From NCBI GenBank assembly GCA_017937385.1, contig JAGBDR010000089.1:1-64000 (forward strand): DNA of 64,000 nt, written 5' to 3'. The notes under the pieces were generated by a model, which saw only the letters and a list, made by a program, of their open reading frames with translations, did no database searches and had not been told where the DNA came from. How positions within the stretch are numbered: the stretch's first letter is position 1; each line of letters starts with the position of its first letter. This document shows, piece after piece, positions 46,955 through 61,300 of the stretch. Position numbers and translations under genes: made by a program. The stretch comes from Parabacteroides sp. GTDB lineage: Bacteria > Bacteroidota > Bacteroidia > Bacteroidales > Tannerellaceae.

Positions 46955-47040
46955 TGTATCACAGCTGTGAAACAAACGGAACACAGTTGTGATATAGAAG
47001 GAAGACAGTTGTGATACAGAAAAAACACAACTGTGAAACA
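46955..47040. repeat. Array of four CACAGTTGTG dyads, 22-bp spacing
   Basis: CACAGCTGTG (46960), CACAGTTGTG (46982), GACAGTTGTG (47004) and CACAACTGTG (47026) start exactly 22 bp apart. They fill the middle of the 340-bp gap between tolC and the regulator gene (46787-47126), which holds no gene. An ATTTATGA-type repeat lies at 46791-46815. Operator sites for the regulator operon or a structural array are both possible. Confidence 0.85.
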
Positions 47041-47126: not shown

Positions 47127-48608
47127 TTATTGTCTTACTATTTTCTCAAATTCCGCATCAAGCGTCTGGTCGTTGATAAAATCATAGAGGGTGACGCTGC
47201 GGATATTGTAATAATAATTCCAATAATCGTACAACTCCTGGATATGCTTCTGCTTGGCCTCATCTTTCGATTGCTGCGCGTCGTTCAGATCCAGGATATT
47301 GATCTTGCCGATCATGAACGTTTCAATAGAAGTCTTATAACGCTTCTCGGCAATCGCATCGGCCTCCTGCGCGATTTCCAGCTGGGCGGCCTGGTTGTTG
47401 AAGTTTTCCACCAACAAGAAAATATCCTGGTTGAAACTGATCTCTTCCTGACGGATCTTCGACAGAACCACGTCGCGGTTCGACTCGGCGACTTTCACCT
47501 TTCCCCGACGCTTACCCCAGTCGAGGATCGGGATCGACATACCCACTTCGACCACCTGGTTCCCTTTCAACCGGTGATAGGCAGCATCAAACGTATGATC
47601 TTTTCCGGTATAGCCGATCGTAGCGTACAGATTGATACTACGGCGGTTCCCTTTGGCGGTCGCAACGGCATAGTCGGCTTCCAACTGCCGGCGGCGGATG
47701 TTCTTGGCAAACGAATTGTTTTCCTGCGCTTTCTGCAACACGACCTCATAAATCATCCGCAAAGAAGAAACAGACTCCGGCAGAATCGGCTCGATCACCT
47801 CCTGTTCGCTCAGACCTAAAAAGGCACGGAGCCGGAACATATTGGCATTCAAGTTGGACTGCGCCTCGGTCAGCTTCCCTTTCATCTGCAAAGCAGACAA
47901 CTTCAACTGCATCAGTTCGCTTTCGGAGATATGGCCGATCTTGCGTTTGGCGATGGCTATTTCATACAACTTATCGGCATTTTCAAGATTCTGCCGGGCG
48001 ATCTGCAAGTTCTCATTCGCCAGCAACAGGTTGAAGAAATAGCCGATCGTGTTGATCGTCACTCCTTCCACGCTCTCGATATAAGCGGCTTTCGCCTCCT
48101 GGTAGCGGACAGGCTCGATACGCCTTTTCCATTTCAGGTTATTCACCCCGAAGATCGGCTGCGTAAGCGTCAACCCGACAGGCACGCTCATATATTCGTT
48201 GAAAGCCCCTTTCCCTAACTGCCGGTTGAAATCGAGGGAGGAGTTCAACGAGATCTTGCCGCCTGTCAGGGCGATATTCTGATCGATCGAAATCTCACCG
48301 CTCAGACCGAGCGAATTATTCTGGACAAATGTATACGAACCGTCGGACTGCTGGTATTTGGTATACTGTTTGCCGTAGGCCGGAAGCGTCCCTTTGAAAT
48401 TGATCTCCGGCAACTGGTCGGCGATATGCGTACGGTATTCCCAATAGGCAGTCTTCAATTCATTCAAAGCAACCGCAGCATCTACCGATTGAATTTGCGC
48501 CAAATGGATCGCTTCTTTGAGAGTCAGCCTGACGGTATCTTGTTCCTGCGCTTGCAATCCGATACCCGTCCACAAGAAAGAAATGATAGCTATATAGATC
48601 TTTTTCAT
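47127..48608 (-). CDS. TolC-family outer-membrane protein of the sigma-54 exporter
   Basis: A 493-residue protein starting at 48608 (MKKIYIAIISFLWTGIGLQAQ, a signal peptide); a longer in-frame extension runs through the promoter and is rejected. The two TolC halves show as LKEAIHLAQIQSVDAAVALNEL near the start and VAESNRDVVLSKIRQEEISF and later coiled coil. It lies downstream of a sigma-54 promoter (48635-48650) with two dyads, identical in layout to those of the ATPase and adaptor genes. It is the likely outer-membrane duct for the ABC exporter further right. Confidence 0.93.
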   Translation of the reverse strand: MKKIYIAIISFLWTGIGLQAQEQDTVRLTLKEAIHLAQIQSVDAAVALNELKTAYWEYRTHIADQLPEINFKGTLPAYGKQYTKYQQSDGSYTFVQNNSLGLSGEISIDQNIALTGGKISLNSSLDFNRQLGKGAFNEYMSVPVGLTLTQPIFGVNNLKWKRRIEPVRYQEAKAAYIESVEGVTINTIGYFFNLLLANENLQIARQNLENADKLYEIAIAKRKIGHISESELMQLKLSALQMKGKLTEAQSNLNANMFRLRAFLGLSEQEVIEPILPESVSSLRMIYEVVLQKAQENNSFAKNIRRRQLEADYAVATAKGNRRSINLYATIGYTGKDHTFDAAYHRLKGNQVVEVGMSIPILDWGKRRGKVKVAESNRDVVLSKIRQEEISFNQDIFLLVENFNNQAAQLEIAQEADAIAEKRYKTSIETFMIGKINILDLNDAQQSKDEAKQKHIQELYDYWNYYYNIRSVTLYDFINDQTLDAEFEKIVRQ

Positions 48609-48634
48609 CGTAATAAATGTTTTACCGTTCCGTC

Positions 48635-48729
48635 GGCAAAAGCCATGCCAAAAAGATATACATCTGATTTTCTGCAACATGCACAAAACAACAGTGTCCG
48701 AAAATGAACAGTGTGTCCGTTTTTGAAAT
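48635..48729 (-). promoter_or_regulatory. Sigma-54 promoter and two enhancer dyads for tolC
   Basis: On the minus strand TGGCATGGCTTTTGCC (48650 to 48635) matches TGGCAC-N5-TTGC with the GG and GC 10 bp apart. Upstream are dyads TGTCCG-AAAA-TGAACA (48695-48710) and TGTCCG-TTTT-TGAAAT (48714-48729), 19 bp apart. Their centres are 54 and 73 bp from the -24 GG. The dyads overlap the leader region of the divergent diacylglycerol kinase gene. Confidence 0.92.
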
Positions 48730-48775
48730 AGAATCGTTATCTTTGTCCCATCCTCATTCAAACAATAAAAACAAG

Positions 48776-49147
48776 ATGAAAAACAGCGGCTTTACTTTTC
48801 GCAAACGACTGGCCAGTTTCCGATATGCCTTTCATGGTATTCGTTTATTAATACAAAAAGAGCACAACGCATGGATACATTGTTTTGCTGCTATTAGTGT
48901 CATTATAGCCGGCCTTTTCTTCGGTTTATCCCAGACTGAATGGGTGGCGATCGTGATCGTAATCGGAGCCGTATTTTCGGCCGAAGCCGTCAATTCTTCC
49001 ATCGAATCATTGGCCGATCTGGTTTCACCCGAATATAACGAAGCCATTAAAAAGACAAAAGACCTCGCTGCCGGCGCCGTCTTAATCATGGCAATAGCCG
49101 CAGCAATAGTCGGAGCAATTATTTTTCTTCCCAGACTGGGATTTTGA
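48776..49147 (+). CDS. dgkA: Diacylglycerol kinase family protein
   Basis: A 123-residue inner-membrane protein starting at 48776 (MKNSGFTFRKRLASFRYAFH). Three membrane helices and the signature AEAVNSSIESLADLVSPEYN (NSSIE with the catalytic Glu, then a metal-binding Asp) identify the prokaryotic DgkA/undecaprenol kinase family. It phosphorylates a lipid alcohol at the membrane. It is divergent from tolC, and the regulator dyads lie in its leader, so it may respond to the same signal. A -7 box, TATCTTTG, lies at 48738-48745. Confidence 0.94.
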   Translation: MKNSGFTFRKRLASFRYAFHGIRLLIQKEHNAWIHCFAAISVIIAGLFFGLSQTEWVAIVIVIGAVFSAEAVNSSIESLADLVSPEYNEAIKKTKDLAAGAVLIMAIAAAIVGAIIFLPRLGF

Positions 49148-49178
49148 ATGACAATCCGAAAGAATAATCCTTTATTTC

Positions 49179-49209
49179 ATTGTTTTACAATTCTATTTGT
49201 TTATATTTG
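49179..49209 (+). promoter_or_regulatory. Promoter of the 69-residue protein gene
   Basis: ATTG at 49179-49182 and TATATTTG at 49202-49209 are 19 bp apart, close to the Bacteroidetes consensus. The start codon is 35 bp downstream. Confidence 0.65.
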
Positions 49210-49243
49210 CACCATTATTAATTAAACATTAAAACAATTAATT

Positions 49244-49453
49244 ATGGCACGTACAGTAAATTACCAGAAAAGAGCTGAAAAGATTAAAGAAATGATCGAT
49301 GAATTAGTAAAAGAGATGGGACATACCCCCCGTATTCCCGTCCAGAAAGACAAAATCAAGCTTGCCGATATTGACTTCGATAACGTTGACGTTGTAACAC
49401 TCATGCAAGTACAGGCACGCATCAGCCGGCTGATCCTTGAAAAAAGCAAATAA
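49244..49453 (+). CDS. Conserved small hypothetical protein
   Basis: A 69-residue protein that I do not recognise. It is charged and helical at the start (YQKRAEKIKEMIDELVKEMG), has a middle with a run of Asp (IDFDNVDVVTLMQ), and a helical end. There is no signal peptide or membrane helix. The promoter at 49179 and good codon use support a real gene. A PAP2 phosphatase gene follows by 22 bp and may share its transcript. Confidence 0.8.
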   Translation: MARTVNYQKRAEKIKEMIDELVKEMGHTPRIPVQKDKIKLADIDFDNVDVVTLMQVQARISRLILEKSK

Positions 49454-49475
49454 TTCCAACAAGGCATATCGATAA

Positions 49476-50033
49476 ATGAAACGAATCCTCACCTTGCTTC
49501 TCGTATTATCCGCCTGTTTATCCGGAAATGCGCAGAAGGCCGAGATCAGCGGAAACCGCAAGGCTGTCCGTACGTCGGGCGACGTATTGGCTCTTGTAAC
49601 GCCGGTGGCAAGCCTGACCACCGTGTTGGTATTACAAGACTGGCAAGGATTGAAGCAAGGTGCTTTGGCTGGAGTTTCGACCATCGGTATGACCTACGCG
49701 CTGAAATACCTGATCAAGAAAGAGCGTCCGGACGGGAGCGACAACCATTCGTTCCCTTCGATGCACACCTCCGTATCATTCACGGGAGCCGCGTTTATCC
49801 AACGGCGTTATGGCTGGAAATGGGGAATTCCGGCCTACGCGGTTGCCTCATACGTAGGATGGAGCCGCACATACGCCCGAAAACACGATTGGTGGGACGT
49901 AGTGGCAGGAGCCGCCCTCGGAGCCGGAAGTGCTTACATCTTTACCCGTCCGTTCGCCAAGAAGCATAACCTGTCTATCAGCCCTGTCGCAAGTGACAAA
50001 CACTTCGGCATCCATGCTTCCATAACGATTTGA
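49476..50033 (+). CDS. PAP2-family lipid phosphatase
   Basis: A 185-residue exported or membrane protein with a signal peptide (MKRILTLLLVLSACLSGNA). The three PAP2 motifs are present: KKERPDG for KxxxxxxRP, FPSMHTS for PSGH (with Met instead of Gly), and SRTYARKHDWWDVVAGA for SRxxxxxHxxxD. It should remove phosphate from a lipid phosphate such as phosphatidate, undecaprenyl-pyrophosphate or lipid A. The diacylglycerol kinase two genes upstream may supply or use related lipids. Confidence 0.92.
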   Translation: MKRILTLLLVLSACLSGNAQKAEISGNRKAVRTSGDVLALVTPVASLTTVLVLQDWQGLKQGALAGVSTIGMTYALKYLIKKERPDGSDNHSFPSMHTSVSFTGAAFIQRRYGWKWGIPAYAVASYVGWSRTYARKHDWWDVVAGAALGAGSAYIFTRPFAKKHNLSISPVASDKHFGIHASITI

Positions 50034-50034
50034 G

Positions 50035-50061
50035 AATTGACAATGGACAATTGACAATTAT
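50035..50061. repeat. AATTGACAATTG-type repeat
   Basis: Three imperfect copies of AATTGACA lie between the PAP2 gene and the first permease gene. A second cluster, with its neighbouring permease-end sequence, lies at 52635-52679. A shorter one lies at 40275-40296. Confidence 0.7.
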
Positions 50062-51332
50062 TCATAGTGTATCGCCTCCGTCGGCCGCAACCGCGACGCC
50101 TGCTGTGCCGGAAACCAAATGCCGGCAAAGATCATCGCCTGCAGGACCAACCATGAGACGGCAAAGACCAGCAAGACACGCCCTCCCGTATAAGGCAAAT
50201 CATACACATTCAGGACACCCGCCTGCAACAGGTTCACATACACCAATAACGCCGGGACTACCGCGACCGATGTCAGGCAAAGGCCCTCCCAAAAGAACAA
50301 CTTCCAGATTGCCGTCCGCGACGCCCCCATCACCATACGGATGCCGATTTCAGAACGCCGCAACCGCGTCCGCAGCCAAAAGGTGCCGAACACACCGAGG
50401 AAAGCCGTCAGCAGGACAAACAGCAAGACATACATCATCGGTTCCACATTCTGCCGCATCTCCGTCTCAATGCACTTCCGGACCTCGTCTTCCATGCTGA
50501 CGACCGAAGAGACATAGATTTGTCCCGCCCAGAGCCGTTCTCCCATCTCACGCTCGAAATGCTCCCGAAAATGCACGTCGCGCCCTTCCCGGACCCGGAC
50601 CCACAATTCCGCCTGTTGAGCTTGCATACGTTGTAACTTCTCATTCCATTGCTGGCGGGTCGGCAATTCGAAGAAAGAGGATTGGTAAGGCCGGAACGGT
50701 TGGCTTTTCAAATCCGCAAAAACAGCGGAAACCAAGTACGGCTTACGTATGTTCTCACCTGCTTCCATATAGAGCGTGTCGTTCAGGACATCCGCAACGG
50801 ATTCGTATGCTAATTTGTCAAAAGCCAATTTAGAGACAAGTAGTTGCGTACGGTCCGAATTCCGTATCTCCAACAGTTTTCCTTCCGAGTCACGCAGACG
50901 GAAAATCTTCAGATAATCCACATCAACTGTACGCCCCTGCAAATTGACCTGTCCCAAGCTGTCGCCTCGGTACAGCATGGTCCACCATCCGCCGGTCGCA
51001 ACCGGAGAGGCCATATTCGAAAAGCTGACCAGTTCCACATCCGGATACATCCGTAGCTGCCCAATCAGTTGTTCCAGCATCTCCCCCTCGGTCTGCTCCA
51101 ACTCGTCGGCAGGCCGGTACCCGACGGCGCCCGGTGTCAGCCGTTTCAACTTCAACTGGTAGGTGTTCGTCACGTCGAAGCCACGCGGCTCCCGGTAGTT
51201 CTTCAACTTGATCCAGGAGAAATCGACTTCCATCAACAAAAACAAGAAGACAACCGTCAATTCCAACAACAGCCAGACGGTCTGCCGCTTCTCGTTCCAC
51301 AATTGTTTTACAATCACTCGAAACATATTCAT
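50058..51332 (-). CDS. MacB/FtsX-type ABC permease, A type (pair 3)
   Basis: A 424-residue inner-membrane permease. The ATG at 51332 overlaps the stop of the preceding permease gene by one base (TGATG), so the two are translationally coupled. The topology is one N-terminal helix (VWLLLELTVVFLFLLMEVDF), a large periplasmic MacB_PCD domain (about 60-275), then three FtsX helices (about 285-415). The C-terminus is LRPTEAIHYE, shared by the A-type permeases at 54527 and 57196. It is the second gene of the ATPase unit's B-A pair. The exported substrate is unknown. Confidence 0.93.
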   Translation of the reverse strand: MNMFRVIVKQLWNEKRQTVWLLLELTVVFLFLLMEVDFSWIKLKNYREPRGFDVTNTYQLKLKRLTPGAVGYRPADELEQTEGEMLEQLIGQLRMYPDVELVSFSNMASPVATGGWWTMLYRGDSLGQVNLQGRTVDVDYLKIFRLRDSEGKLLEIRNSDRTQLLVSKLAFDKLAYESVADVLNDTLYMEAGENIRKPYLVSAVFADLKSQPFRPYQSSFFELPTRQQWNEKLQRMQAQQAELWVRVREGRDVHFREHFEREMGERLWAGQIYVSSVVSMEDEVRKCIETEMRQNVEPMMYVLLFVLLTAFLGVFGTFWLRTRLRRSEIGIRMVMGASRTAIWKLFFWEGLCLTSVAVVPALLVYVNLLQAGVLNVYDLPYTGGRVLLVFAVSWLVLQAMIFAGIWFPAQQASRLRPTEAIHYE

Positions 51333-52615
51333 CACGCATTTAACGCCTCCACAATCTGCCGCCGCGCCACACGCCACGCCGGTATGCCGATCGAAAGGAA
51401 ATTTATAAAAAGACATATCAGGAATGCCACCGGCAACAGCCAGGGCGTAAACAACATATCCGCTGTCAACAGCACATCCGTCCGCTCCAGCAAACCGTCT
51501 TTCGCCAAAAAGAAGAACAAGACGGAAAAGCATTGCCCCAGCACGCATCCGATCGCCGTCACAAGCAGGCTTTCGCAAAGCATCTGCCCCACTACACGCG
51601 AGGAGGTCGCCCCGAACGCCTTCCGCAACCCGATCTCCGGCTGCCGCCTCCGGATCTGGCTGAACGCCAGCCCTAACATATTGAATACCGGCAGGAAGAA
51701 GAAGAGCAACGCCAAGCTGATCATGCCGGTAAACAACGCCCCCATCTCCTCATCATGCCAACGTTTGAACATCCGCTGCGTCGCCGTATGCGGCTGTGCG
51801 AACAGACCGGCCTCCCACTCCGGCGCATTGGCATTGTAGCGTTTCACGTTCTGCGCCACCTCTTCGCGGATTGCCGGGAAATCAGCAGGCGAAGCGGCCA
51901 GCAGGCAGACGTTCAGGTTACCGCAGATACCGTCCGCATTCACCGTCGCCATCATCACCTCGTCGCACGAATAGGGCACGAACACCTGCCCATACGTCTC
52001 CGAGACCGCCTCGCTGACCGACTTTACGACACCACACACGCGATACTCGACATACTCAATCTGCAACGTCTCTCCTATCACATCGACCGTGCCGAACAAC
52101 TCGCGGGCGACCTCTTCTGTCAGCACCGCCTCCCGGAGGGCACTCCGGTAAGTAGCCTCGTCATAGGGCTTGCCTGCCACGAACGTAAAGTCGAACACAC
52201 GCCAAAACCCGTCGTTCGTCTGCCGCAACTGATACTCGCCACTCGCTTTCCGCCCGGGAGAGGTCAGGCGCGACTGCTGTACACTGCCCGACATGACCGC
52301 CACCCCATCGACTGTCTTCAACTCCTCGAATACCTGTCGCGTGAACGGGACGCCCAGGCCGTCCATCCACCGAGCGCCCGTCTGGACACGCCGGCCGTCT
52401 GCCTCTATCTTCATCTTATCCGCCTGTACCCCAGTCACATAAAGCATCTGCCCACGCGCCGACACCGGAGCATAGGCCGAAGTCCGCACAATATAAAACT
52501 GGACCAAAACCAGCAACATCGCAGCAGACAACGTCGTCCCCATAACCATCAGCACACTCATCAAAGGATTCTCCCTAAGAGAAGCCCAGGCTTGTTTTAA
52601 ATATTGCCTATACAT
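51332..52615 (-). CDS. MacB/FtsX-type ABC permease, B type (pair 3)
   Basis: A 427-residue permease starting MYRQYLKQAWASLRENPLMS, the B-type opening also seen at 55809 and 58477. One N-terminal helix, a periplasmic MacB_PCD domain and three C-terminal helices are visible. The motif GLRKAFGATSSRVVGQML in the last part is the coupling-helix region that contacts the ATPase. The C-terminus ends VARRQIVEALNA. It lies 243 bp after the ATPase gene, with a dyad array and a permease remnant in between. Confidence 0.93.
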   Translation of the reverse strand: MYRQYLKQAWASLRENPLMSVLMVMGTTLSAAMLLVLVQFYIVRTSAYAPVSARGQMLYVTGVQADKMKIEADGRRVQTGARWMDGLGVPFTRQVFEELKTVDGVAVMSGSVQQSRLTSPGRKASGEYQLRQTNDGFWRVFDFTFVAGKPYDEATYRSALREAVLTEEVARELFGTVDVIGETLQIEYVEYRVCGVVKSVSEAVSETYGQVFVPYSCDEVMMATVNADGICGNLNVCLLAASPADFPAIREEVAQNVKRYNANAPEWEAGLFAQPHTATQRMFKRWHDEEMGALFTGMISLALLFFFLPVFNMLGLAFSQIRRRQPEIGLRKAFGATSSRVVGQMLCESLLVTAIGCVLGQCFSVLFFFLAKDGLLERTDVLLTADMLFTPWLLPVAFLICLFINFLSIGIPAWRVARRQIVEALNA

Positions 52616-52658
52616 TATATATATACATCTTTTTCAATTATCAATTCTCAATTGTCAA

Positions 52659-52679
52659 TTATTCATAGTGCAACGCCTC
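52659..52679 (-). pseudogene. Last seven codons of a vanished A-type permease
   Basis: On the minus strand these bases read EALHYE and a stop, the conserved end of the A-type permeases at 50058 (EAIHYE), 54527 and 57196 (EALHYE). The AATTGACA repeat beside it is the same as the one beside the end of the permease at 50058. Nothing else of a permease is present. It marks a lost permease pair or a small copied gene end. Confidence 0.7.
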
Positions 52680-52717
52680 CTTATTATGCGAAGCGCCTAC
52701 AGCGCTTTTCGACACAG

Positions 52718-52825
52718 TGCCCTATTCTAACAAATTTACGATGCCCGTTCTAAGAAGTTTATAATGCCTATTCTAAGAGGTTTATGATGCCCATTCTAAG
52801 AACCTAACAATGGGCATCGTAAGCA
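52718..52825. repeat. Array of 23-bp dyad units (five units)
   Basis: Cores TGCCCTAT (52718), ATGCCCGT (52741), ATGCCTAT (52764), ATGCCCAT (52787) and ATGGGCAT (52810) are each 23 bp apart. The sequence TTCTAAG follows the middle cores. It belongs to the same family as the array at 23109. Confidence 0.85.
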
Positions 52826-52858
52826 AAGGCATACTCAATGATAGAACCGTGCTTATCG

Positions 52859-53524
52859 TCACATCACCTGCCGCCCGTCGAAGAAGCGGACCGTGCGGCT
52901 TGTCTGCCGGGCCTGTTCCTCGTTGTGCGTGACCATAACGATGGTGCGGCCGTCCTCCTGGTTCAGCTTGTGGAGCAATTCCATGACTTCGGCACCCATC
53001 TTGGAATCCAAGTTACCGGTCGGCTCGTCGGCAAGGATGATTTCAGGGTTACCGACGATGGCACGGGCGATGGCAACGCGCTGGCACTGTCCGCCGGAAA
53101 GCTGCGTCGGAAAGTGGCGCATGCGGTGCGAGAGGCCGACCTTTTCAAGTACAGCTTCGGCAGCGGCACGGCGTTCCTTGGCGCTCACCTTGCGATAAAG
53201 CAACGGAAGCTCAACGTTGTCGAGCACGTTCAGCGAATTAATCAGATGGAAGGACTGGAAGACGAAGCCGAGCGTCCGGTTACGGAAAGCGGCCAACTGT
53301 TTGTCGTTCATATCAGCCGTATTCGTCCCGGCAATCTCAACCGTCCCGGATGTCGGGGCGTCCAACAGCCCGATGATATTCAGCAAGGTGGACTTGCCAC
53401 AGCCCGAAGGCCCCATAATACTCAGAAACTCCCCTTTATCGACCGTCAGGTTCACATTCTCCAGGGCTACCGTCTCAATCTCTTTCGTGCGATAGACTTT
53501 TTCAAGATTTGTCAGTGTAATCAT
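52859..53524 (-). CDS. MacB/LolD-type ABC ATPase
   Basis: A 221-residue ATPase of the MacB/LolD family. It has Walker A GPSGCGKST (about 38-46), the signature LSGGQCQRVAIARA, Walker B ILADEPTGNLDS, and the switch histidine in VMVTHNEEQA. Length is normal. It is the only ATPase gene in the region and must serve at least the pair at 50058-52615. The presence of the same promoter and dyads before the adaptor unit suggests it serves all three permease pairs. The sigma-54 promoter lies 40 bp upstream of its start. Confidence 0.96.
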   Translation of the reverse strand: MITLTNLEKVYRTKEIETVALENVNLTVDKGEFLSIMGPSGCGKSTLLNIIGLLDAPTSGTVEIAGTNTADMNDKQLAAFRNRTLGFVFQSFHLINSLNVLDNVELPLLYRKVSAKERRAAAEAVLEKVGLSHRMRHFPTQLSGGQCQRVAIARAIVGNPEIILADEPTGNLDSKMGAEVMELLHKLNQEDGRTIVMVTHNEEQARQTSRTVRFFDGRQVM

Positions 53525-53563
53525 GTTCGTTATTGTTTATTGCATTTTGTTTGCCATCCCTTA

Positions 53564-53658
53564 AGCAAATTGCGTGCCAAAAACGTAATTCATTGATATA
53601 TCATCACATACAGAAAAACCGAATGTCCGATAATGAACAGTGGATTCATTATCGGACA
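53564..53658 (-). promoter_or_regulatory. Sigma-54 promoter and two enhancer dyads for the ATPase unit
   Basis: On the minus strand TGGCACGCAATTTGCT (53579 to 53564) is a perfect sigma-54 promoter. Dyads TGTCCG-ATAA-TGAACA (53624-53639) and GATTCA-TTAT-CGGACA (53643-53658) lie upstream, 19 bp apart, with centres 54 and 73 bp from the -24 GG. Together they form a 19-bp perfect inverted repeat with a 7-base loop (53619-53637 and 53645-53663). Confidence 0.95.
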
Positions 53659-53665
53659 TTCGGAA

Positions 53666-53720
53666 GCGTACAATTTACGGCAATAGCGTACGATTGGGGA
53701 CAACGGCGTACGATTTGACA
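53666..53720. repeat. Three 20-bp spaced GCGTACRATT units
   Basis: GCGTACAATT at 53666, GCGTACGATT at 53686 and GCGTACGATT at 53706 are exactly 20 bp apart. They lie directly upstream of the sigma-54 dyads. The style is that of the other phased arrays, but the core differs. Confidence 0.7.
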
Positions 53721-53723
53721 ACG

Positions 53724-53751
53724 GTAGAGACGCAGGGCCCTGCGTCTCTAC
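53724..53751. repeat. 28-bp perfect palindrome
   Basis: GTAGAGACGCAGGG followed by its exact complement. A second copy with one mismatch is at 59792-59819. Similar GTAGAGACGC palindromes are widespread in Bacteroidetes as I remember. It lies 15 bp after the toxin gene and could act as a terminator or a REP-like element. Confidence 0.88.
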
Positions 53752-53765
53752 AACAACAACAACCG

Positions 53766-54113
53766 TTAGGAATCATTGAAGGAGGCAAGAAGGGTAGCAA
53801 TCTCGGCGGGAGAGATGGTGTCGCGATCGGCCTTGTCATAGATGGTAAGAAGCGTCACGATGCCTTCTTCATCGGCACAAATAATCGCTTCGGTATAGGT
53901 GATTACCCGTGCCCCGTGGCTCTTGCCTTTGTGCTTGGATGTGATAGCCAGGCGTACTTTGCGCACACCGTTACCCAAGCTGACACCGAGGAGCGGACTC
54001 TCTTCCAGCTCGTCAATCAGCTCCTCCACATCGTTTTGCAGGGAACGGTAGCGTTTGCTTAATCGTTTGAACTCTCGGTCGAATGTTTCATGATGAATAA
54101 TAACTTTAGTCAT
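53766..54113 (-). CDS. RelE/ParE-like toxin
   Basis: A 115-residue protein starting at 54113 (MTKVIIHHETFDREFKRLSK). The order helix, helix, then strands with VRLAITSKHKGKSHGARVIT and a late LLTIYDKADRDTIS fits the RelE/ParE fold, as does the position 5 bp after a small partner gene. RelE toxins cut mRNA in the ribosome; ParE toxins block gyrase. Which one this is cannot be read. It is encoded at the end of the permease unit, next to the palindrome. Confidence 0.8.
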   Translation of the reverse strand: MTKVIIHHETFDREFKRLSKRYRSLQNDVEELIDELEESPLLGVSLGNGVRKVRLAITSKHKGKSHGARVITYTEAIICADEEGIVTLLTIYDKADRDTISPAEIATLLASFNDS

Positions 54114-54118
54114 AATGC

Positions 54119-54394
54119 TCAATCTAAAGTTTTCAACCACTCTCGGGCATCCATAAACTTATGCCCGACATCCTTTCCCTCACGCAGATCTTTCAAGTCT
54201 TTCAGCCCCTCCCTAATGTCCGCCAAAATCTGTTCCTTAGTCGGTTCCACATAGGCATCCATATCGACCTCCTTCGCCCATGCCTTTTCTTTCAAGCGCC
54301 GGATGGAAGAGAGGGCCTTTTTGATCAGTTGTTCATCATCATTGAGATCCATCACCTCCTGCAACAACGACATTTTCATTTCAATAGCTGTCAT
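54119..54394 (-). CDS. Antitoxin partner of the RelE/ParE-like toxin
   Basis: A 91-residue, charged, mostly helical protein (MTAIEMKMSLLQEVMDLNDD, then ALSSIRRLKEKA). It precedes the toxin gene by 5 bp, the usual order. I do not recognise a DNA-binding fold; the C-terminal half (DIREGLKDLKDLREGKD) is probably the toxin-binding part. The pair may be a stabiliser of the surrounding exporter genes or simply inserted there. Confidence 0.75.
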   Translation of the reverse strand: MTAIEMKMSLLQEVMDLNDDEQLIKKALSSIRRLKEKAWAKEVDMDAYVEPTKEQILADIREGLKDLKDLREGKDVGHKFMDAREWLKTLD

Positions 54395-54436
54395 ATCTAT
54401 ATCCTTTCCTTTTGGTTCACAGCAAAAAAGATAATG

Positions 54437-54526
54437 AAGATTTATGATTTATGATTTATGATTTATGACCTAAATACACCTTGTCACCATAAACCATAAA
54501 TCATAAATCTAAAATCATAAATCCTT
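54437..54526. repeat. Inverted ATTTATGA repeats, long hairpin
   Basis: Four direct copies of ATTTATG (54440-54468) are followed by inverted copies (ATAAATC, 54490-54523). They can pair over about 30 bp. The right half and following bases (TCACTCATAATGCAACGC) are almost identical to 57165-57212, at the end of the next A-type permease gene. It separates the permease and toxin-antitoxin genes. Confidence 0.8.
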
Positions 54527-55798
54527 TCACTCATAATGCAACGCCTCCGCCGGCGCCAGCCGCACCGCCTTACGGACGGGGAACCAGATGCCGATACAGA
54601 TCATGGCGGCCATCATCAGGTAAGCCGTAGTGAAAGTCACGAGGAAGCGTACGCAGGTGAACGGTTGCCGATAGGTGTCGAGCTTATCCAAATACACCAT
54701 ATTGAATGCGAAAAAGAGGACAAATGGCAACGTCAGCCCCAGCAAGCACAATCCCTCGGCATACATATAGCGTTTCAGCGTAATCCGGTGGGCACCCAAC
54801 GCCATCCGAAGACCGATCTCGCCTTTGCGGTTCTGCATACGGAACCAGAAGGTACCGATAATCCCGAAGAAGACGTTTACCAACATGAATGCCATCAGCG
54901 ACATCTGGTTATTCGCCTCCCGCTCTTTCCAGCCCAATTGCCGTTCGCGGAAAGAGGAAATCGGGGTAATGCCGTAGACATAGAGGTTATTGACCCTCAA
55001 CCGCTCCCCCATACCGTCCAGGAAACGATTCATCTCGTTCTGCGTATAAGGACGTTTCATGCGGACGCAGAACTCGGCGCTACTGGCACCGAAACTATTG
55101 ACGACCGAATTGTAGAGTTCCCCCTCCAAACACTGGAAAAAAGCGGCTTCCGGACGTGCGTATTCGTTCGTGCGGATAGGAACGGAAACCGCAGCGATCT
55201 CGGACGTCTGTTCACGCCCGCTGTGGTACATACGGCGGCCGGTAACGTTCGGGACGCCAGGATAGCACCCTTCCGCCATTTTAGGCGTGACCACAACCAC
55301 GTTGTGCCGCCCGGCGACCTTATCGTAGACCGGTTCCCCGTCGGTTGTCCGGATACGGAAGAGGCGGAAATATTCGGGCGTGACGTTGCGCATCTGAAAC
55401 GTTTTCATGTTTTTGGCATAAACGGTATCGCCGTCCACCGGTTTGACTTCCCGCCAGGAGTTGCCGTTCGAATAGGGACAGGAATAGAAAGTGACACAGA
55501 CATCCTCAACCTCCGGATTCAGACGGATTTGGTCCATCAGCCGCGTCAGATCTTCCGGGTCGGACGAACGGTAGAGGCTGTCGGGGACGTAATCCGGTGC
55601 TTTCGCATCCAGTTTGCTCAGTTTGAACCGCCACACGTTCTCGATATCGAAGCCCAAAGGGGCATGATAGGTACGGAAGTCCACATAAAAGGCGTCTATC
55701 ATCATCCAAAGCACGGCAGCCACCACCAACAGTTCCGCAAATATCCAGCCGTTGTTATGGCGCTGGTTCCATATTATCTTTAAAAGATGCTTGATCAT
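54527..55798 (-). CDS. MacB/FtsX-type ABC permease, A type (pair 2)
   Basis: A 423-residue permease starting MIKHLLKIIWNQRHNNGWIF, the A-type opening. It has one helix near residues 18-38, the periplasmic MacB_PCD domain (about 60-275) and three C-terminal helices. EIGLRMALGAHRITLKRYMY is the ATPase-contact region. The end is LAPAEALHYE. It follows the B-type gene of the same pair by 10 bp. It is most like the A-type gene at 57196, which suggests a tandem duplication of the pair. Confidence 0.93.
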   Translation of the reverse strand: MIKHLLKIIWNQRHNNGWIFAELLVVAAVLWMMIDAFYVDFRTYHAPLGFDIENVWRFKLSKLDAKAPDYVPDSLYRSSDPEDLTRLMDQIRLNPEVEDVCVTFYSCPYSNGNSWREVKPVDGDTVYAKNMKTFQMRNVTPEYFRLFRIRTTDGEPVYDKVAGRHNVVVVTPKMAEGCYPGVPNVTGRRMYHSGREQTSEIAAVSVPIRTNEYARPEAAFFQCLEGELYNSVVNSFGASSAEFCVRMKRPYTQNEMNRFLDGMGERLRVNNLYVYGITPISSFRERQLGWKEREANNQMSLMAFMLVNVFFGIIGTFWFRMQNRKGEIGLRMALGAHRITLKRYMYAEGLCLLGLTLPFVLFFAFNMVYLDKLDTYRQPFTCVRFLVTFTTAYLMMAAMICIGIWFPVRKAVRLAPAEALHYE

Positions 55799-55808
55799 GG
55801 TTTTGTAT

Positions 55809-57071
55809 TCATTTACTGTTCAACGCTTCTACAATCTGTTCACGGGCAATACGAAAAGCAGGAAGTCCGGCGCTCAACAAGTTCAGCAGCAGGGTGAAGA
55901 GAAGAGCGGCGACAAACAAGCCGGGCTTGAAAAGCATTTCAAAGGTAACCAGCGTATCTTTTGTCAGCAAAAACGACTTGCCTACCTGGAGCAGCACGAC
56001 GGATAGGACGATCCCGATGCCCCCGCCTATCAGGGTCGTTATCAGGTTCTCAAACAAGACCTGTGCCAACAGCCGCCCTTTCGTCGCCTCGAACGCCTTG
56101 CGAAGTCCCATTTCGGAACGCCGCTTCTGGACGGACGACTGCACGACTCCCGTCAGGTTCAGTGTCGGGACCAACAGCAGGAAAAGCAACAGAGGCGCCT
56201 TGTTGATCCAGTATTCCATCCAACCGACCCGGATACCCCCGTCCATATCGGTCGATCCCAAGGCAAGATCCAAACGGGAAAAGACGGAGTTTATCCCCAA
56301 CACGAACTCCCGGCCGGCCGCATTATAACGGCTGACCGCCTGTCCGACTTCCGCACGGATCGCCTCGAAATCCTTCTTTGAACGAGCCAGGATCACTCCC
56401 TGGAAACTACCGCTGACGCCTCCGCACGACCGACTGTTCGTGTAACCCGCATAACTGGTATAAGGCGCCCAGAGGTCGGCATAGGTACAGTCGGCAACCC
56501 GCGACGGGTCTTCCACCACTCCCGTAACCGTATGCGGCACGGAGCCGATCAGCACCACTTTGCCGACCGGAGGTTCCGATCCGAACAATTTGCGTGCCAA
56601 CCTGTTCGCCATGACCACACGTGGCAGGCCGGACTCGAAATCCGCCTCTGTAAACGGTTTGCCGGAAAGAAAACGGAAGTCGAAAATCTTCCAGAAGCCG
56701 GAGTCGGTATATTTGATCTGATACTCCTCGAACAACTGGCGGTCCGGCAAGTAGACAATCGCCTGGCTGTTCGCCATCGCCGTCACCGCTTCGGGCGTCT
56801 GAAGCGGATAAAGGCATTCTTTTACTACACCGTCGGACATGGCGGTCGAATTCAGGCTTTTGCCATCCCGCGAATCCGCCCGGATCCCCATGATATAAAG
56901 CATCCGGTCACGGTTCGACTCCGGACGGAAACCGACCAGCCGGATCTGGAACTGCAATACGACTACCAGTATCATCGCAATCGAAAGCGCCGTCCCCAAA
57001 ATCGAGACCGTACTGGTCAACCGATTCTCCTTCAACATCAGGAACGCTTGTTTAATGTATTGTTTGAACAT
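55809..57071 (-). CDS. MacB/FtsX-type ABC permease, B type (pair 2)
   Basis: A 420-residue permease starting MFKQYIKQAFLMLKENRLTS. The N-terminal helix, periplasmic domain and three-helix end follow the B-type plan, and GLRKAFEATKGRLLAQVLFE is the contact region for the ATPase. The C-terminus is FRIAREQIVEALNSK. The upstream gap of 124 bp to the preceding A-type gene is filled by ATTTATGA repeats, so there may be no separate promoter. Confidence 0.93.
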   Translation of the reverse strand: MFKQYIKQAFLMLKENRLTSTVSILGTALSIAMILVVVLQFQIRLVGFRPESNRDRMLYIMGIRADSRDGKSLNSTAMSDGVVKECLYPLQTPEAVTAMANSQAIVYLPDRQLFEEYQIKYTDSGFWKIFDFRFLSGKPFTEADFESGLPRVVMANRLARKLFGSEPPVGKVVLIGSVPHTVTGVVEDPSRVADCTYADLWAPYTSYAGYTNSRSCGGVSGSFQGVILARSKKDFEAIRAEVGQAVSRYNAAGREFVLGINSVFSRLDLALGSTDMDGGIRVGWMEYWINKAPLLLFLLLVPTLNLTGVVQSSVQKRRSEMGLRKAFEATKGRLLAQVLFENLITTLIGGGIGIVLSVVLLQVGKSFLLTKDTLVTFEMLFKPGLFVAALLFTLLLNLLSAGLPAFRIAREQIVEALNSK

Positions 57072-57076
57072 AGGGA

Positions 57077-57192
57077 ATGATTTATGATTTATGATTTATG
57101 CCACATAATTTATGATTTCAGGTTTATGACCTACGATGAAAAACGCTATCGTTTCCCATAAATCATAAATCATAAATCTAAAATCATAAATC
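57077..57192. repeat. ATTTATGA repeats between permease pairs 1 and 2
   Basis: Direct copies (57079-57098) and inverted copies (57160-57190) flank a short unrelated middle. The right half matches 54490-54530 closely. The repeat marks the junction between duplicated permease pairs. Confidence 0.8.
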
Positions 57193-57195
57193 TTC

Positions 57196-58464
57196 TCACT
57201 CATAATGCAACGCTTCCGCCGGATTCATCCTTGTGATCTTGCGTGCCGGTAGCCAGATGCCGACCCGGATCATGCCGGCCAGCAAGAGGAACGCGCCGCC
57301 GACTACGACTAACAACCGCCACCAGGTGTAAGGCAGACGTCCGGTATCGGGCAAGTCGAAATAAATCATGTTCAGCATGAACACTAAAATCAGCGGGATT
57401 GCAAAGGCCAACAACAACAGCCCTTCTTGGTTGAGGTGGCGTTTCAACATGCCATGCGAAGCGCCGATGGCCGAACGCAACCCCATTTCGCCCCGGCGGG
57501 ACTGCGTGCGGAGCCAGAACGTGCCGACGATGCCGAAAAAGACATTCACCAGCATGAAGCCGACCAGCACCATCTTCTTCTTCAGGTTGTCCGTGCGGCT
57601 TTTCAGGATAACCGGCCGTTGCTCTTCCAAGGGGATGACACAGGAAACGTACAGGTTGTTCACCGTCAGCCGTTCGCCCATCGCTTCCAGGAAGCCGTCC
57701 ATCTCCTCCTTGCGGAAGCCGTCATTCATGCGGACCAGACAGTCCATGTTCTGGGCTTTCATCTCATTTACAAACTCAACTATATCCTCATCCGTTCTCA
57801 TCAATTGGTAAAAGCAAGGGGCGCTTTTCTCAAATTCATTCTGCCGGATGGGAGAGGTAACGGCGGCGACCGTCATGGAATTCGTACTCTTGTTGCTCCA
57901 TTTCACCTGTTTGCCCACGCCCGATTGCCCGGCAAAGAGACTCGTCACCATATCTTCCGAAAGAACAATGTCGCCACTGTTTTGCTCCACAACCGGACGC
58001 GCCGGACGGCCCTCCTGGTCGCTAATCCGAAAGACATCAAAGTAATGGGGTGACACCGTAAACATCTGGTAATAATTAGGCTTCACGCTTGTATCGGCAT
58101 CCGCCCGGACCAACTGGGCCCAGCGGTTCGACCAGGTATAAGGGCACGCGCTATAAGCCAAACACACCTCCTCCACCTCTTTCGCCTGCCGGATGTTGTC
58201 AACCAAACGAAGGAGGTCTTCCCCCTCGGTCGTCGCCAGCGAGGAATCCGGGACATAGCCCGGTATATCGGAACTTATCTTACCGATATTTACCTTATAT
58301 ACATTCGTGATGTCGAACCCCAACGGCTTGTTATAGGTGCAAAACTCAACCAGGAACGAATCCATCATGACGCACAACACGCCGAAAACCAACGCCAACT
58401 CCATGAATATCCAACCGTTGTTCCGCCGTTGGTTCCAAATAATCGTCCATATATGCTTAATCAT
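57196..58464 (-). CDS. MacB/FtsX-type ABC permease, A type (pair 1)
   Basis: A 422-residue permease starting MIKHIWTIIWNQRRNNGWIF, almost the same start as the A-type permease of pair 2. One N-terminal helix, the periplasmic domain, and three C-terminal helices with GEMGLRSAIGASHGMLKRHL before the last two are visible. The end is MNPAEALHYE. It follows its B-type partner by 12 bp. Confidence 0.93.
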   Translation of the reverse strand: MIKHIWTIIWNQRRNNGWIFMELALVFGVLCVMMDSFLVEFCTYNKPLGFDITNVYKVNIGKISSDIPGYVPDSSLATTEGEDLLRLVDNIRQAKEVEEVCLAYSACPYTWSNRWAQLVRADADTSVKPNYYQMFTVSPHYFDVFRISDQEGRPARPVVEQNSGDIVLSEDMVTSLFAGQSGVGKQVKWSNKSTNSMTVAAVTSPIRQNEFEKSAPCFYQLMRTDEDIVEFVNEMKAQNMDCLVRMNDGFRKEEMDGFLEAMGERLTVNNLYVSCVIPLEEQRPVILKSRTDNLKKKMVLVGFMLVNVFFGIVGTFWLRTQSRRGEMGLRSAIGASHGMLKRHLNQEGLLLLAFAIPLILVFMLNMIYFDLPDTGRLPYTWWRLLVVVGGAFLLLAGMIRVGIWLPARKITRMNPAEALHYE

Positions 58465-58476
58465 TGTCTTACTTTT

Positions 58477-59748
58477 TTATCGGTTAAACTCTTCTCCGTC
58501 TTTCAAGGAGGTAACAATCTTCTGGCGGGCAATGCGCATTGCCGGCAGGCCTGCCGAAAGCAGGTTCAGCAACAGGCTGAACAGCAACGCCAAGAGGAAT
58601 ACGGCGGGCTGGAAAATCATGTCCCCACTCAACGACGTGTCGCGGCTCTGCAACAGGAAATCCTTGCAGATAGGCAGAAACAGTAGGGAGAGCACCAGTC
58701 CCGCCAGGCCGCCGATCAAGGTGATCACGCTATTCTCATACAGCACCTGCCGGACCAGCACGCCGCTGGTGGCGCCAAACGCCTTGCGGACCCCCATCTC
58801 CGCCCGCCGCTTCTGTACCGCCGACTGCGTGACGCCCAACAGGTTCAACGCCGGGACCAGCAACAGGAACAACAGGAGGCCGCCGGTCTCCAAAAGGTAA
58901 TCTTTCAAAGCGACCTTGCGCTGCCCGATCGAGCCGATAGCGATGTCGAAGCGGGTGATGGGATTCTCGAAAAAGTTGATCTTCGCGTCCCGCTTCATCC
59001 CGTTATACCGTTCCACCTGCTTCAGCAACTCCTGCCGGATCGCGTCGAAGTCGCGGCTGTCCTTTGCCAAGAGGCAGGTGGAGAACCAGCCGGCCATATT
59101 CTCGTGGCCGGTATTGTTCATCAGGAACCAATCTGTCGTATAAGGAACCCACACATCCCCGAAAGCGGTATCGGCGGCACGGCTGACCTCTTTCACGACC
59201 CCGCAGATCGTATAGTTTGCCAAGTCGAGGATGACGGTCTTCCCGACTACATCGGTCGTCCCGTAAAGTTTCCGGGCGACGCTCTCCGACACGACCGCCA
59301 GCGGGATCGCCGAGTCGAAGTCCGCCTGCGTAAACGGTTTGCCGGCGAGGAAGCGGAAAGAAAAGATCTTCCAGAAGCCGGGGTCCGTATATTTGATCTG
59401 GTAACCCTTGTACATCCGTTTCCCCGGTATGGACAGGGGCTTCAACTGCACGGCATAGCCGGAAACCGCCTCCGGCAACTGCAAAGAGTAGAAACATTCC
59501 TTCACGGCTTCGGGCGACATATTCCCCCGGTTCCAACCGCTGCTGGTCTGTACCTCCGTCCCGCTGTCCACATACATCATCCGGTCGCGGTGGTTCTCCG
59601 GATAGTAACTGGCACACTGTATCTGGAACACCAGGACGATAACCATGATCATGGCAATGGAGATGGCTGTTCCGGAAATGGAGATGACGCTGACGAGACG
59701 ATTCTCCTTCAACATCTGGAGGGATTGTTTGAGATAATGTTTGAGCAT
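58477..59748 (-). CDS. MacB/FtsX-type ABC permease, B type (pair 1)
   Basis: A 423-residue permease starting MLKHYLKQSLQMLKENRLVS, of B type. Its last part has GVRKAFGATSGVLVRQVLYE, the ATPase-contact region. The C-terminus is MRIARQKIVTSLKDGEEFNR, longer and different from the two other B permeases. It is the first permease after the adaptor gene, separated by 75 bp that hold repeats and a 28-bp palindrome. Confidence 0.93.
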   Translation of the reverse strand: MLKHYLKQSLQMLKENRLVSVISISGTAISIAMIMVIVLVFQIQCASYYPENHRDRMMYVDSGTEVQTSSGWNRGNMSPEAVKECFYSLQLPEAVSGYAVQLKPLSIPGKRMYKGYQIKYTDPGFWKIFSFRFLAGKPFTQADFDSAIPLAVVSESVARKLYGTTDVVGKTVILDLANYTICGVVKEVSRAADTAFGDVWVPYTTDWFLMNNTGHENMAGWFSTCLLAKDSRDFDAIRQELLKQVERYNGMKRDAKINFFENPITRFDIAIGSIGQRKVALKDYLLETGGLLLFLLLVPALNLLGVTQSAVQKRRAEMGVRKAFGATSGVLVRQVLYENSVITLIGGLAGLVLSLLFLPICKDFLLQSRDTSLSGDMIFQPAVFLLALLFSLLLNLLSAGLPAMRIARQKIVTSLKDGEEFNR

Positions 59749-59755
59749 AATATAG

Positions 59756-59819
59756 GATTTATGATTTTTGATTTATGATTTATGATTTTACGTAGAGGCG
59801 CAGGGCCCTGCGTCTCTAC
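59756..59819. repeat. ATTTATGA repeat and 28-bp palindrome
   Basis: Four ATTTATGA-type units (59757-59789) are followed by the palindrome GTAGAGGCGCAGGG plus complement (59792-59819, one mismatch with the copy at 53724). They lie between the adaptor and the first permease and may modulate read-through inside the operon. Confidence 0.82.
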
Positions 59820-59823
59820 ACAT

Positions 59824-61074
59824 TCAATTATCCCATAATTTCAATTTGTTCTTTTCCTTGTAGGCATTCATGTCCGAGATGACTACCTCGTCGCCCTCCT
59901 GCAGGCCGCTGACCACCTCGACATACTCGTAGTTGCTGTCGCCCAACTGCACCTTGCGTTTCAGCAATTGGCCTCCATTGACGACAAAGAGTTCGTACTC
60001 GCCCTTTCCGACATAATAGGAAGAGTTGGCAATGCGGAGCACGTCGTCTTTCACGGCATTCATCACATAGACATCGGTCTTCAGGCCGGAACGGAGTCGC
60101 TTGTGGTTGTCTTCCTCCAACTGGACGGTGAACGAGATCACGCCGTTCTTCGACAAAGGGGTCACATCGCTGACCGTCCCTTCCAGTTTGTCGCTGCCGA
60201 TCTTGACCACCGCCTTGCTGCCGGCGGCGATGCGGTCGCCGTAGGTGTCGGCAATCTCGCCCTCGATCTTGAAGTGCGACAGGTCGGATACGATCGCCAC
60301 CTTCGCCCCCTGGCCGATCTGCGCCCCGATCTCGTTGTTCACGTAGGTCAGGATCGCTTTGCGGGGCGAACGGATCCGGGCGTCCTCCAGCGTGCGCCGG
60401 GTTTCGGCAAGGCTTTTGCGGAAGATATTCAATTCCAACTCCTTTACTTTCAGATCCGCTTCGGCAAGGGCCTGTTCGTTGGCGTATTTCTGTTCGTCCT
60501 CCTTCAGTTTGAGAAGGCTCACGTTGTAGTCGAGTTCCACCTGGCGCACCTTGTCGGTCGTGCCGGCACCGAGGCTGTCCAAATAACGTTCGTTGCGGAG
60601 TTCGACCGCCTTGCGGTCCAGCTCCATGCGGGAGACCTTGAGGTTCATCTCCATTTCCGACAGCTTGTTGTGGTTCATCACGCGCTGCTGTTGCAGTTGC
60701 AGGCTCTTCATCTGCTCCTCGTCCAACTGTTTGTTGTATTCCGTCTCGGCGCTCTGCAAATCCAGCCTCAGGATCGGCGTACCGGCATCGACCGAGTCGC
60801 CGCCCCGCTTATACACCTCCACGATACGGGAATTGATCGGCGAGTTGATGATCTCCTCAAATGCCGGGACTACCTTGCCGGACGCGCTGACCGACACTTC
60901 GATTACGCCCCGGTCGACCACCGACAGGTTCAGGTCCTTCCGCTTCAGGCTGGTTTGAAGCATGGAGATCACCACCACGACCAAGGCGACAAGACCGCCG
61001 GCAACCGCCCCTATCTTGACAAACTGTTTGCGCTGTTCTTTTCGCTGTACTTCTTTTGAAATCGCTCTGTCCAT
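59824..61074 (-). CDS. HlyD/MacA-type membrane-fusion adaptor
   Basis: A 416-residue adaptor. A basic cytoplasmic start (1-20), one membrane helix (about 22-42, IGAVAGGLVALVVVVISML) and then the periplasmic part: barrel segment, long coiled coil (about 100-210; DEEQMKSLQLQQQRVMNHNK), lipoyl-type segment IRSPRKAILTYVNNEIGAQI, beta-barrel and membrane-proximal domain. It bridges the permease pairs and TolC. As the only adaptor gene of the system it must serve all three pairs. The sigma-54 promoter lies 40 bp upstream of its start. Confidence 0.95.
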   Translation of the reverse strand: MDRAISKEVQRKEQRKQFVKIGAVAGGLVALVVVVISMLQTSLKRKDLNLSVVDRGVIEVSVSASGKVVPAFEEIINSPINSRIVEVYKRGGDSVDAGTPILRLDLQSAETEYNKQLDEEQMKSLQLQQQRVMNHNKLSEMEMNLKVSRMELDRKAVELRNERYLDSLGAGTTDKVRQVELDYNVSLLKLKEDEQKYANEQALAEADLKVKELELNIFRKSLAETRRTLEDARIRSPRKAILTYVNNEIGAQIGQGAKVAIVSDLSHFKIEGEIADTYGDRIAAGSKAVVKIGSDKLEGTVSDVTPLSKNGVISFTVQLEEDNHKRLRSGLKTDVYVMNAVKDDVLRIANSSYYVGKGEYELFVVNGGQLLKRKVQLGDSNYEYVEVVSGLQEGDEVVISDMNAYKEKNKLKLWDN

Positions 61075-61113
61075 ATTTAATCGTGTTTGAATTCATCTTT
61101 CCGGCATTTTCAT

Positions 61114-61208
61114 GGCAAACTTCGTGCCAAAAGTATAAGTCACTGATTTTAAGAGCGTCTTCTTTTTCGCAAGTGTTCAATATCGGACAGTGTGTTCGGT
61201 TTTGGGAA
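61114..61208 (-). promoter_or_regulatory. Sigma-54 promoter and two enhancer dyads for the adaptor unit
   Basis: On the minus strand TGGCACGAAGTTTGCC (61129 to 61114) is a perfect sigma-54 promoter. Dyads TGTTCA-ATAT-CGGACA (61174-61189) and TGTTCG-GTTT-TGGGAA (61193-61208, weaker) lie upstream, 19 bp apart, with centres 54 and 73 bp from the -24 GG. Layout is identical to those of tolC and the ATPase gene. Confidence 0.93.
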
Positions 61209-61237
61209 AACAAAAAACGGACAGGCACCGGATTCGG

Positions 61238-61300
61238 GACGGATGGGCATCCGTTTCCAATCCGATGCCCATCCATTACGAATCCGATGCCCGTCCGTCT
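61238..61300. repeat. Array of three 22-bp dyad units
   Basis: ATGGGCAT (61243), ATGCCCAT (61265) and ATGCCCGT (61287) are 22 bp apart, each preceded by CG or GG and followed by CC. The array lies between the adaptor promoter and the end of the GH2 gene. Confidence 0.8.

Follow-up and report, generated by a model that had tools for sequence, protein, structure and literature searches.

How are the parts of one multi-part exporter kept in step when their genes lie in separate blocks? The question is raised by a 64,000-nucleotide stretch of Parabacteroides sp. (Bacteroidales, Tannerellaceae; assembly GCA_017937385.1, contig JAGBDR010000089.1, positions 1 to 64,000), hereafter the window, in which a 17-kb run of genes on the minus strand encodes, from 61074 to 44099, an HlyD adaptor and two permease pairs, then after a gap an ABC ATPase and a further permease pair, and after a second gap TolC, a response regulator and a histidine kinase. 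Each of these three gene blocks is headed by a sigma-54 promoter, and the answer that we favor, with good confidence, is a sigma-54 regulon for one tripartite ABC exporter that would be driven by the neighboring kinase-regulator pair.

The three sigma-54 boxes, all on the minus strand, are TGGCATGGCTTTTGC at 48636-48650 (tolC), TGGCACGCAATTTGC at 53565-53579 (ABC ATPase) and TGGCACGAAGTTTGC at 61115-61129 (hlyD); in each, the -24 GG and the -12 GC are set 10 bases apart, and each is near TGGCAYRN4TTGC. Upstream of every box lies a perfect TGTYCR-N4-YGRACA dyad, of which the window contains no other perfect copy, separated from the TGG by exactly 44 nt and centered 54 bp from the GG, while a distal dyad with mismatches at 2 of 12 positions is found exactly 19 bp further upstream in each case (Table 1). 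A first-pass annotation, made from the sequence of the window, had located the three promoters and both dyad distances correctly. Its description of the dyads as identical pairs stands for the perfect proximal copy and the constant spacing, but not for the distal copy, whose equality with the proximal one was rejected because it is degenerate both here and in the main class of a larger set of sites. It recorded the dyads and boxes but overlooked a fixed element resembling a binding site for integration host factor (IHF), which also belongs to the promoter, and its term "dispersed" does not fit this genome, in which the three promoters serve a single same-strand run.

We searched the available genome sequence (3,730,563 bases, approximately 90% complete) with a strict composite consisting of a perfect dyad, 30-55 free bases and TGGCAYN5TTGC, using the same pattern read backwards as a control. 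The composite matched three times, always with a gap of 44 and always in this locus, the control gave 0 matches, and so did the window after each of 300 mononucleotide shuffles; the constancy noted in the first-pass annotation thus exceeds chance, and a scan for further members returned only the same three sites. Perfect dyads alone occurred 14 times genome-wide (control 3), and the 11 outside the three promoters were rejected as further regulon members because, at 20-69 nt from them, every candidate box departs from the sigma-54 consensus at 3 or more positions (3 in the best case, L103). The location of these 11 in open reading frames does not count against them, because by the same measure two of the three real sites are in open frames as well. 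Strong sigma-54 boxes numbered 13 genome-wide (control 7), and two of them, elsewhere in the genome, are by our judgement likely sigma-54 promoters: L156 1501 (G000:C22:31393), with a best dyad of 4 mismatches, and L162 1501 (C90:162555), which has a dyad with 2 mismatches at a gap of 54 and an IHF-like element matching 8/9 positions, and which could be a weak member of the regulon.

Table 1. Promoter elements and genes of the exporter locus (positions in the window).
Feature	Position	Strand	Basis or remark
Sigma-54 promoter of adaptor-permease unit	61114..61129	-	
IHF-like element AATCAGTGACTTA, 9/9, hlyD promoter	61136..61148	-	
hlyD proximal dyad, perfect	61174..61189	-	
hlyD distal dyad, 2 mismatches	61193..61208	-	
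HlyD/MacA-type periplasmic adaptor	59824..61074	-	NCBIfam
MacB/FtsX-type permease 1, first half of pair	58477..59748	-	NCBIfam
MacB/FtsX-type permease 2, second position of pair	57196..58464	-	
MacB/FtsX-type permease 3, first half of pair	55809..57071	-	Pfam, NCBIfam
FtsX-type permease 4, second half of pair	54527..55798	-	Pfam, NCBIfam
Sigma-54 promoter of ABC ATPase unit	53564..53579	-	
IHF-like element TATCAATGAATTA, 9/9, ABC ATPase promoter	53586..53598	-	
ABC ATPase proximal dyad, perfect	53624..53639	-	
ABC ATPase distal dyad, 2 mismatches	53643..53658	-	with proximal dyad, 20-bp inverted repeat, then T5
ABC ATPase, MacB/LolD/DarD type	52859..53524	-	Pfam, NCBIfam, solved chains
MacB/FtsX-type permease 5, first half of pair	51332..52615	-	Pfam, NCBIfam
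FtsX-type permease 6, second half of ADOP-like pair, start uncertain	50058..51341	-	Pfam, NCBIfam
Sigma-54 promoter of tolC	48635..48650	-	start codon 42 nt downstream of T of TGG
IHF-like element AATCAGATGTATA, 8/9, tolC promoter	48657..48669	-	19 nt before TGG
tolC proximal dyad, perfect	48695..48710	-	
tolC distal dyad, 2 mismatches	48714..48729	-	
tolC, outer membrane channel	47127..48608	-	Pfam OEP 1.9e-42 for longer open frame 47127-48761
NtrC/AtoC-type response regulator, proposed activator	45413..46786	-	REC, sigma-54 AAA+, Fis-type HTH
Histidine kinase	44099..45400	-	two membrane helices, very short periplasmic link, HAMP-like stretch, PAS, HATPase_c; Pfam

The general anatomy of the site was taken from 96 unique strict sites, after removal of one overlapping reading with a gap of 35. 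The gap between dyad and box is 43-46 in 85 of these sites and 31 in the other 11. In the larger class, an upstream dyad copy at a shift of 19 averages 8.0 of 12 matches, compared with about 4 at most other shifts, and reaches at least 10 in 33 of the 85 sites; in the gap-31 class the upstream copy lies at a shift of 23 and is nearly perfect, with at least 11 matches in 11 of 11. The larger class also carries the IHF-like element, for which the available part of PMC8407004 gives the consensus WATCARNNNNTTR: exactly 19 nt before the TGG, at least 7 of 9 positions match in 72 of the 85 sites, and at the level of at least 8/9 other registers are almost empty. Bases between dyads, IHF-like element and boxes carry little information. 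On the plain reading, a putative bending protein would help the close-set enhancer, and the gap-31 promoters would have found another geometry. All 15 gap-31 sites in the gene-start comparison below precede tolC, and the regulators of gap-31 loci fall in one 29-row part of a quick tree, which also includes rows without that gap.

Which genes the site precedes was determined in 80 loci, the best 80 of 582 regulator relatives in named genomes of Bacteroidales (Parabacteroides, Tannerella, Bacteroides, Phocaeicola and others). Gene starts with enough upstream sequence were scored for a site within 230 bp on the regulator's strand, allowing up to 2 mismatches, TTGC or TTGT (some relatives carry TTGT as the -12 element), and gaps of 31 or 43-46; as the loci were selected by regulator, nearness of site and regulator proves nothing in this set. 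The site preceded 11 of 11 hlyD starts, 50 of 65 for tolC, 3 of 22 for the ABC ATPase and 2 of 75 for permeases, with the reversed control at 0 in every class, and it lay directly before none of the 80 regulator and 79 kinase starts. Three further hlyD genes also have the site (L093, and on the other strand with TTGT in L051 and L071), which brings the count to 14 of 14. Among the 15 site-less tolC starts, 11 lie 14-106 bp behind another exporter gene and look operonic, 7 of them with a site before hlyD and 4 with the start of the block outside the locus; in L071, tolC is preceded by a perfect dyad and a TTGT box that lie a little past the 230-bp limit. The pattern comes near to a single site for each exporter block, and the composite precedes the first gene of such blocks in many Tannerellaceae and Bacteroidaceae. 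The comparison of dyads in related genomes proposed by the first-pass annotation, with its concern that dyads might be lost while genes were kept, therefore found the site at every hlyD gene and mostly operonic-looking genes among the site-less tolC. From this conservation, it is very likely that the dyad/box sites function as operators.

To what extent does the switch travel with the exporter? Starting from the site, we searched 118 genomes of Tannerellaceae, the family of the window, and found 120 copies of the strict site in 60 genomes and none for the control. Most copies (83 of 120) lie within 30 kb of a regulator gene on the same contig; for the remaining 37, "not within 30 kb" mostly means another contig. 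Upon inspection of each of these 37, 34 were seen to directly precede exporter genes (hlyD 24; tolC 4, one of them a remnant; ABC ATPase 3; permease 3), L141 to precede a kinase remnant, and L142 and L151 no recognizable exporter gene. In G373, one hlyD site lies 3.45 Mb from the orthologous regulator gene, which is on the same contig, with a paralogue as the nearest regulator gene at 2.56 Mb, and in G383 the hlyD and permease sites lie approximately 2 Mb inside a contig without a regulator of at least 60% identity. The predicted regulon is therefore one locus in this genome and dispersed in some relatives, in which the switch stays with the exporter. At the other extreme, five promoters of this kind and some six permease pairs are gathered in a single locus of G377 (L152, L153). 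Four loci (L141, L143, L144, L145) keep the site with regulator, kinase or tolC present as remnants or split pieces.

The candidate for the activator is encoded in the same locus. The response regulator exceeds the Pfam cut-offs for Response_reg, Sigma54_activat and HTH_8 and matches AtoC of NCBIfam at 6e-122, under the equivalog cut-off, and the genome has one rpoN match and 14 HU/IHF-family matches, four of them strong. The kinase, with HAMP and HisKA matches below the Pfam cut-off, has, like its listed orthologues, two N-terminal transmembrane helices joined by a very short link (judged by eye), and would therefore have no periplasmic sensor domain. Across 68 loci, counting the window, the gap between tolC and the regulator gene falls below 60 bp in 37, which makes co-transcription with tolC, and hence positive feedback, likely in those loci; in this genome it is 340 bp. 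Within it, a palindrome-like ACARYTGTGA motif occurs in four copies at exact 22-bp steps (46961-47036), and 44 nt before the regulator gene there is a TAnnTTTG box, which we take to be a Bacteroides-type -7 element; together they perhaps provide separate control of the regulator operon. Paralogous regulators (61-64% identity) occur in single operons of the order ABC-permease-permease-regulator-kinase, behind a site with a gap of 44 or 46 (L148, L149, L154), and in HlyD-ABC-permease-permease-TolC-regulator-kinase operons with a dyad and box before hlyD (L202, L203). These operons appear to tie the regulator family to FtsX-type exporters, beyond mere neighborhood with tolC.

Co-occurrence and gene linkage thus make the adjacent NtrC-type regulator the likely activator of the three promoters, and from here we infer binding, bending and transcription as follows. 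The kinase would phosphorylate the regulator, which would occupy the strong dyad, about 54 bp from the -24 box, and the weaker copy a further 19 bp upstream, at about 73 bp. An HU/IHF-type bending protein at WATCARN4TTR, between dyad and promoter, would help the activator touch sigma-54 RNA polymerase, and the regulator's ATPase would open the three promoters together, so that the adaptor with two permease pairs, the ATPase with one permease pair, and TolC are made together as parts of one pump. From the type of kinase and transporter, our guess for the signal is a membrane-borne or antimicrobial cue. The first-pass annotation had already proposed that one regulator couples the exporter parts, and with sites before exporter blocks across relatives this is still the best reading, although the probable regulator and its kinase in the same locus had been overlooked.

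The co-occurrence on which this assignment leans was assessed in the 118 Tannerellaceae genomes, counting a regulator as present at 60% identity or more or with a strong partial match. It was found in 72 genomes: 55 had both regulator and site, 5 the site only, 17 the regulator only, and 41 neither (Fisher p = 1.1e-12). Two of the site-only genomes (G347 and G407; L155, L146) have contigs that end soon after the site, and among the regulator-only genomes a near-miss site with the usual gap is present in 4 (L205, L210, L212, and L217 for L211), a dyad at a gap of 65-66 is present in 2 (L202, L203), and 7 are cut by a contig end.

Several observations weigh against the proposed circuit. The Fisher value ignores shared ancestry, and the scan behind it scored at most 14 candidates per genome; the four other regulator-only genomes (L200, L206, L213, L216) have no site near the regulator. 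In the two paralogous operons with hlyD at their head, the strong dyad (L202 8810, L203 2127) stands 65-66 nt from the sigma-54 box, not 44. Three tolC genes of the 80 loci do not lie close behind an exporter gene and have either a box with a best dyad of 4 mismatches (L058, B. fragilis) or neither box nor dyad (L085, and L030, which has a site before hlyD). Across the order, in 295 genomes drawn evenly, the strict site was found in 5, a regulator relative (E<=1e-120) in 19 and both in 4 (control 0), which leaves 15 of the 19 without a strict site; the one genome with a site and no such regulator, G270, has it before hlyD in a block hlyD-ABC-permease-permease-tolC on an 11,980-base contig (L147). 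As for the IHF-like element, it occupies the 19-nt register in 0 of 11 gap-31 sites, and its specificity to the regulon was rejected since 12 of 49 element-plus-box matches in the 118 genomes have no dyad (37 have one); being found at dyad-less boxes and absent from gap-31 sites, it is not essential.

Some of these points could also be explained if the dyads were bound by another regulator, either a different bacterial enhancer-binding protein (bEBP) or a repressor, and the neighboring kinase-regulator pair were merely linked. The genome encodes eight full-strength bEBP sigma-54 domains, so that another bEBP could bind the dyads, and this explanation would also account for the four genomes that have the regulator and no site nearby, as well as for L141, L143 and L144, which keep their sites with the regulator missing or eroded. 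Yet these last three loci, from the site-only genomes G315, G314 and G298, respectively, contain remnants of tolC, regulator or kinase near the site with no masked bases, which looks like later decay; site and regulator otherwise co-occur, and paralogous regulators are encoded within exporter operons behind a similar site. We therefore regard control by another regulator as unlikely and retain the adjacent one as the activator.

Much less probable is a reading of the inverted repeats as terminators of transcription or as RNA structures instead of operators. At the ABC ATPase promoter the dyads do make up a stem of 20 bp closed by a 5-nt loop, with T5 after it on the coding strand, and this one repeat may have a double role as operator and terminator, but no such structure was listed at the other two sites, and a fixed distance between a 16-bp dyad and a sigma-54 box, as seen in 96 unique sites, is nothing that a terminator would require. 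That the sites are functionless relics of one duplicated intergenic region is barely credible, because, for all that the three upstream regions have short direct repeats in common and the permease pairs look duplicated, their likeness is limited to dyads, IHF-like element and boxes, fixed over many genera with little information in the bases between, and copies as far from the regulator as that of G373 keep the site before hlyD.

The gene products of the run make up a tripartite set of the MacAB-TolC type, with adaptor, FtsX/MacB permease with periplasmic core domain, MacB-type ATPase and outer membrane channel. The NCBIfam comparison covered five permeases (1, 3, 4, 5 and 6), of which 1, 3 and 5 resemble the first half and 4 and 6 the second half of the ADOP duplicated permease, all below cut-off; the pairs resemble a single ADOP permease divided between two genes. 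The ATPase is similar to DarD, LolD and MacB while staying under the cut-offs of all 25 NCBIfam models listed, and its solved relatives include YbbA, MacB, LolD and BceA, while the adaptor just reaches the cut-off of the general RND_mfp subfamily. Scores for the fused MacB equivalog of NCBIfam were far below cut-off, and the DarBCD equivalog was not reached (ATPase 265.8 bits, cut-off 375; adaptor 71.9, cut-off 450). Repeats are frequent between these genes. A 28-nt palindrome, GTAGAGACGCAGGGCCCTGCGTCTCTAC, is found at 53724-53751 and 59792-59819, both intergenic and with one base different, and looks like a dispersed palindromic repeat; a 23-bp unit in tandem copies lies just upstream of permease 5 (52721-52812), and a long imperfect inverted repeat with 40-nt arms upstream of the hlyD promoter (61217-61298). 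Between the permease pairs, GATTTAT-type 7-mers stand in tandem in both orientations (54425-54525, 57065-57195 and 59742-59799), and these, with a 94% like junction, suggest that the pairs were duplicated by recombination.

What looks like a complete sigma-54 circuit, with sensor, activator, operator, bending site and targets, is thus present in these gut and oral bacteria of the Bacteroidales, an order for which we found little on sigma-54 regulons. In some relatives, parts of the exporter have kept this switch although they are megabases away from the regulator, which shows how a split multi-part machine may stay coordinated. Because the strict operator had zero backwards-control matches in the genomes searched, members should be readable off new genomes, and since the pump family is linked to antimicrobial export, its control would bear on the response of gut commensals to membrane stress. 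Among the open-access literature matches listed, we found no described regulon of this kind apart from PMC12316311; none of three sigma-54 terms occurred in PMC10994844, and there was nothing on it in the available portions of PMC3411805, PMC5706477 and PMC10197588.

That one study (PMC12316311, 2025), in the part available, reports predicted sigma-54 promoters enriched before COG0577 (FtsX-type) permeases in Bacteroidia and calls this the first evidence, so that the sigma-54 link, presented in the first-pass annotation as little described, had already been predicted for FtsX-family permeases of this class. Transporter family, sigma factor and class are all the same as here; the difference is that the enrichment is given per COG and that the portion available names no regulator or operator for the permeases, and the terms HlyD, TolC, MacB, IHF and "upstream activat" are absent from its main text. 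Compared with control of the NtrC/AtoC/ZraR type, the locus shares the REC-AAA+-HTH regulator, the adjacent kinase gene, the dyad enhancers, the -24/-12 box and an IHF-like site between. Enhancers are typically about 100-150 bp upstream of the promoter, with looping often aided by IHF (PMC7057263, in the part available), whereas the enhancer here is close to the -24 GG at a near-fixed distance, the site is repeated before separate blocks of one exporter, and the kinase appears to lack a periplasmic sensor domain. With MacA-MacB-TolC and DarBCD-type exporters it has in common the HlyD adaptor, TolC, MacB/FtsX permeases and a LolD/MacB/DarD-like ATPase, but here ATPase and permease are separate genes and three ADOP-half-like permease pairs share one ATPase gene.

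A further likeness is to the BceRS-BceAB systems, peptide-sensing modules of Firmicutes with OmpR-type regulator output. As in these, the kinase has two helices with almost no outside loop (by eye) and is linked to an FtsX-family ABC transporter, and the ATPase matches BceA among solved chains, ranking after many others. It is conceivable, though we put it forward tentatively, that the locus is a Bacteroidales counterpart of the Bce type on sigma-54, in which the kinase, having no outside sensor, would read the state or flux of the exporter and the activator would switch on all exporter blocks from a portable cassette of fixed geometry (dyad, IHF site, -24/-12) that would move with the exporter genes, even over megabases. 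Unlike the Bce type, the output here is a sigma-54 activator, and HlyD and TolC are present.

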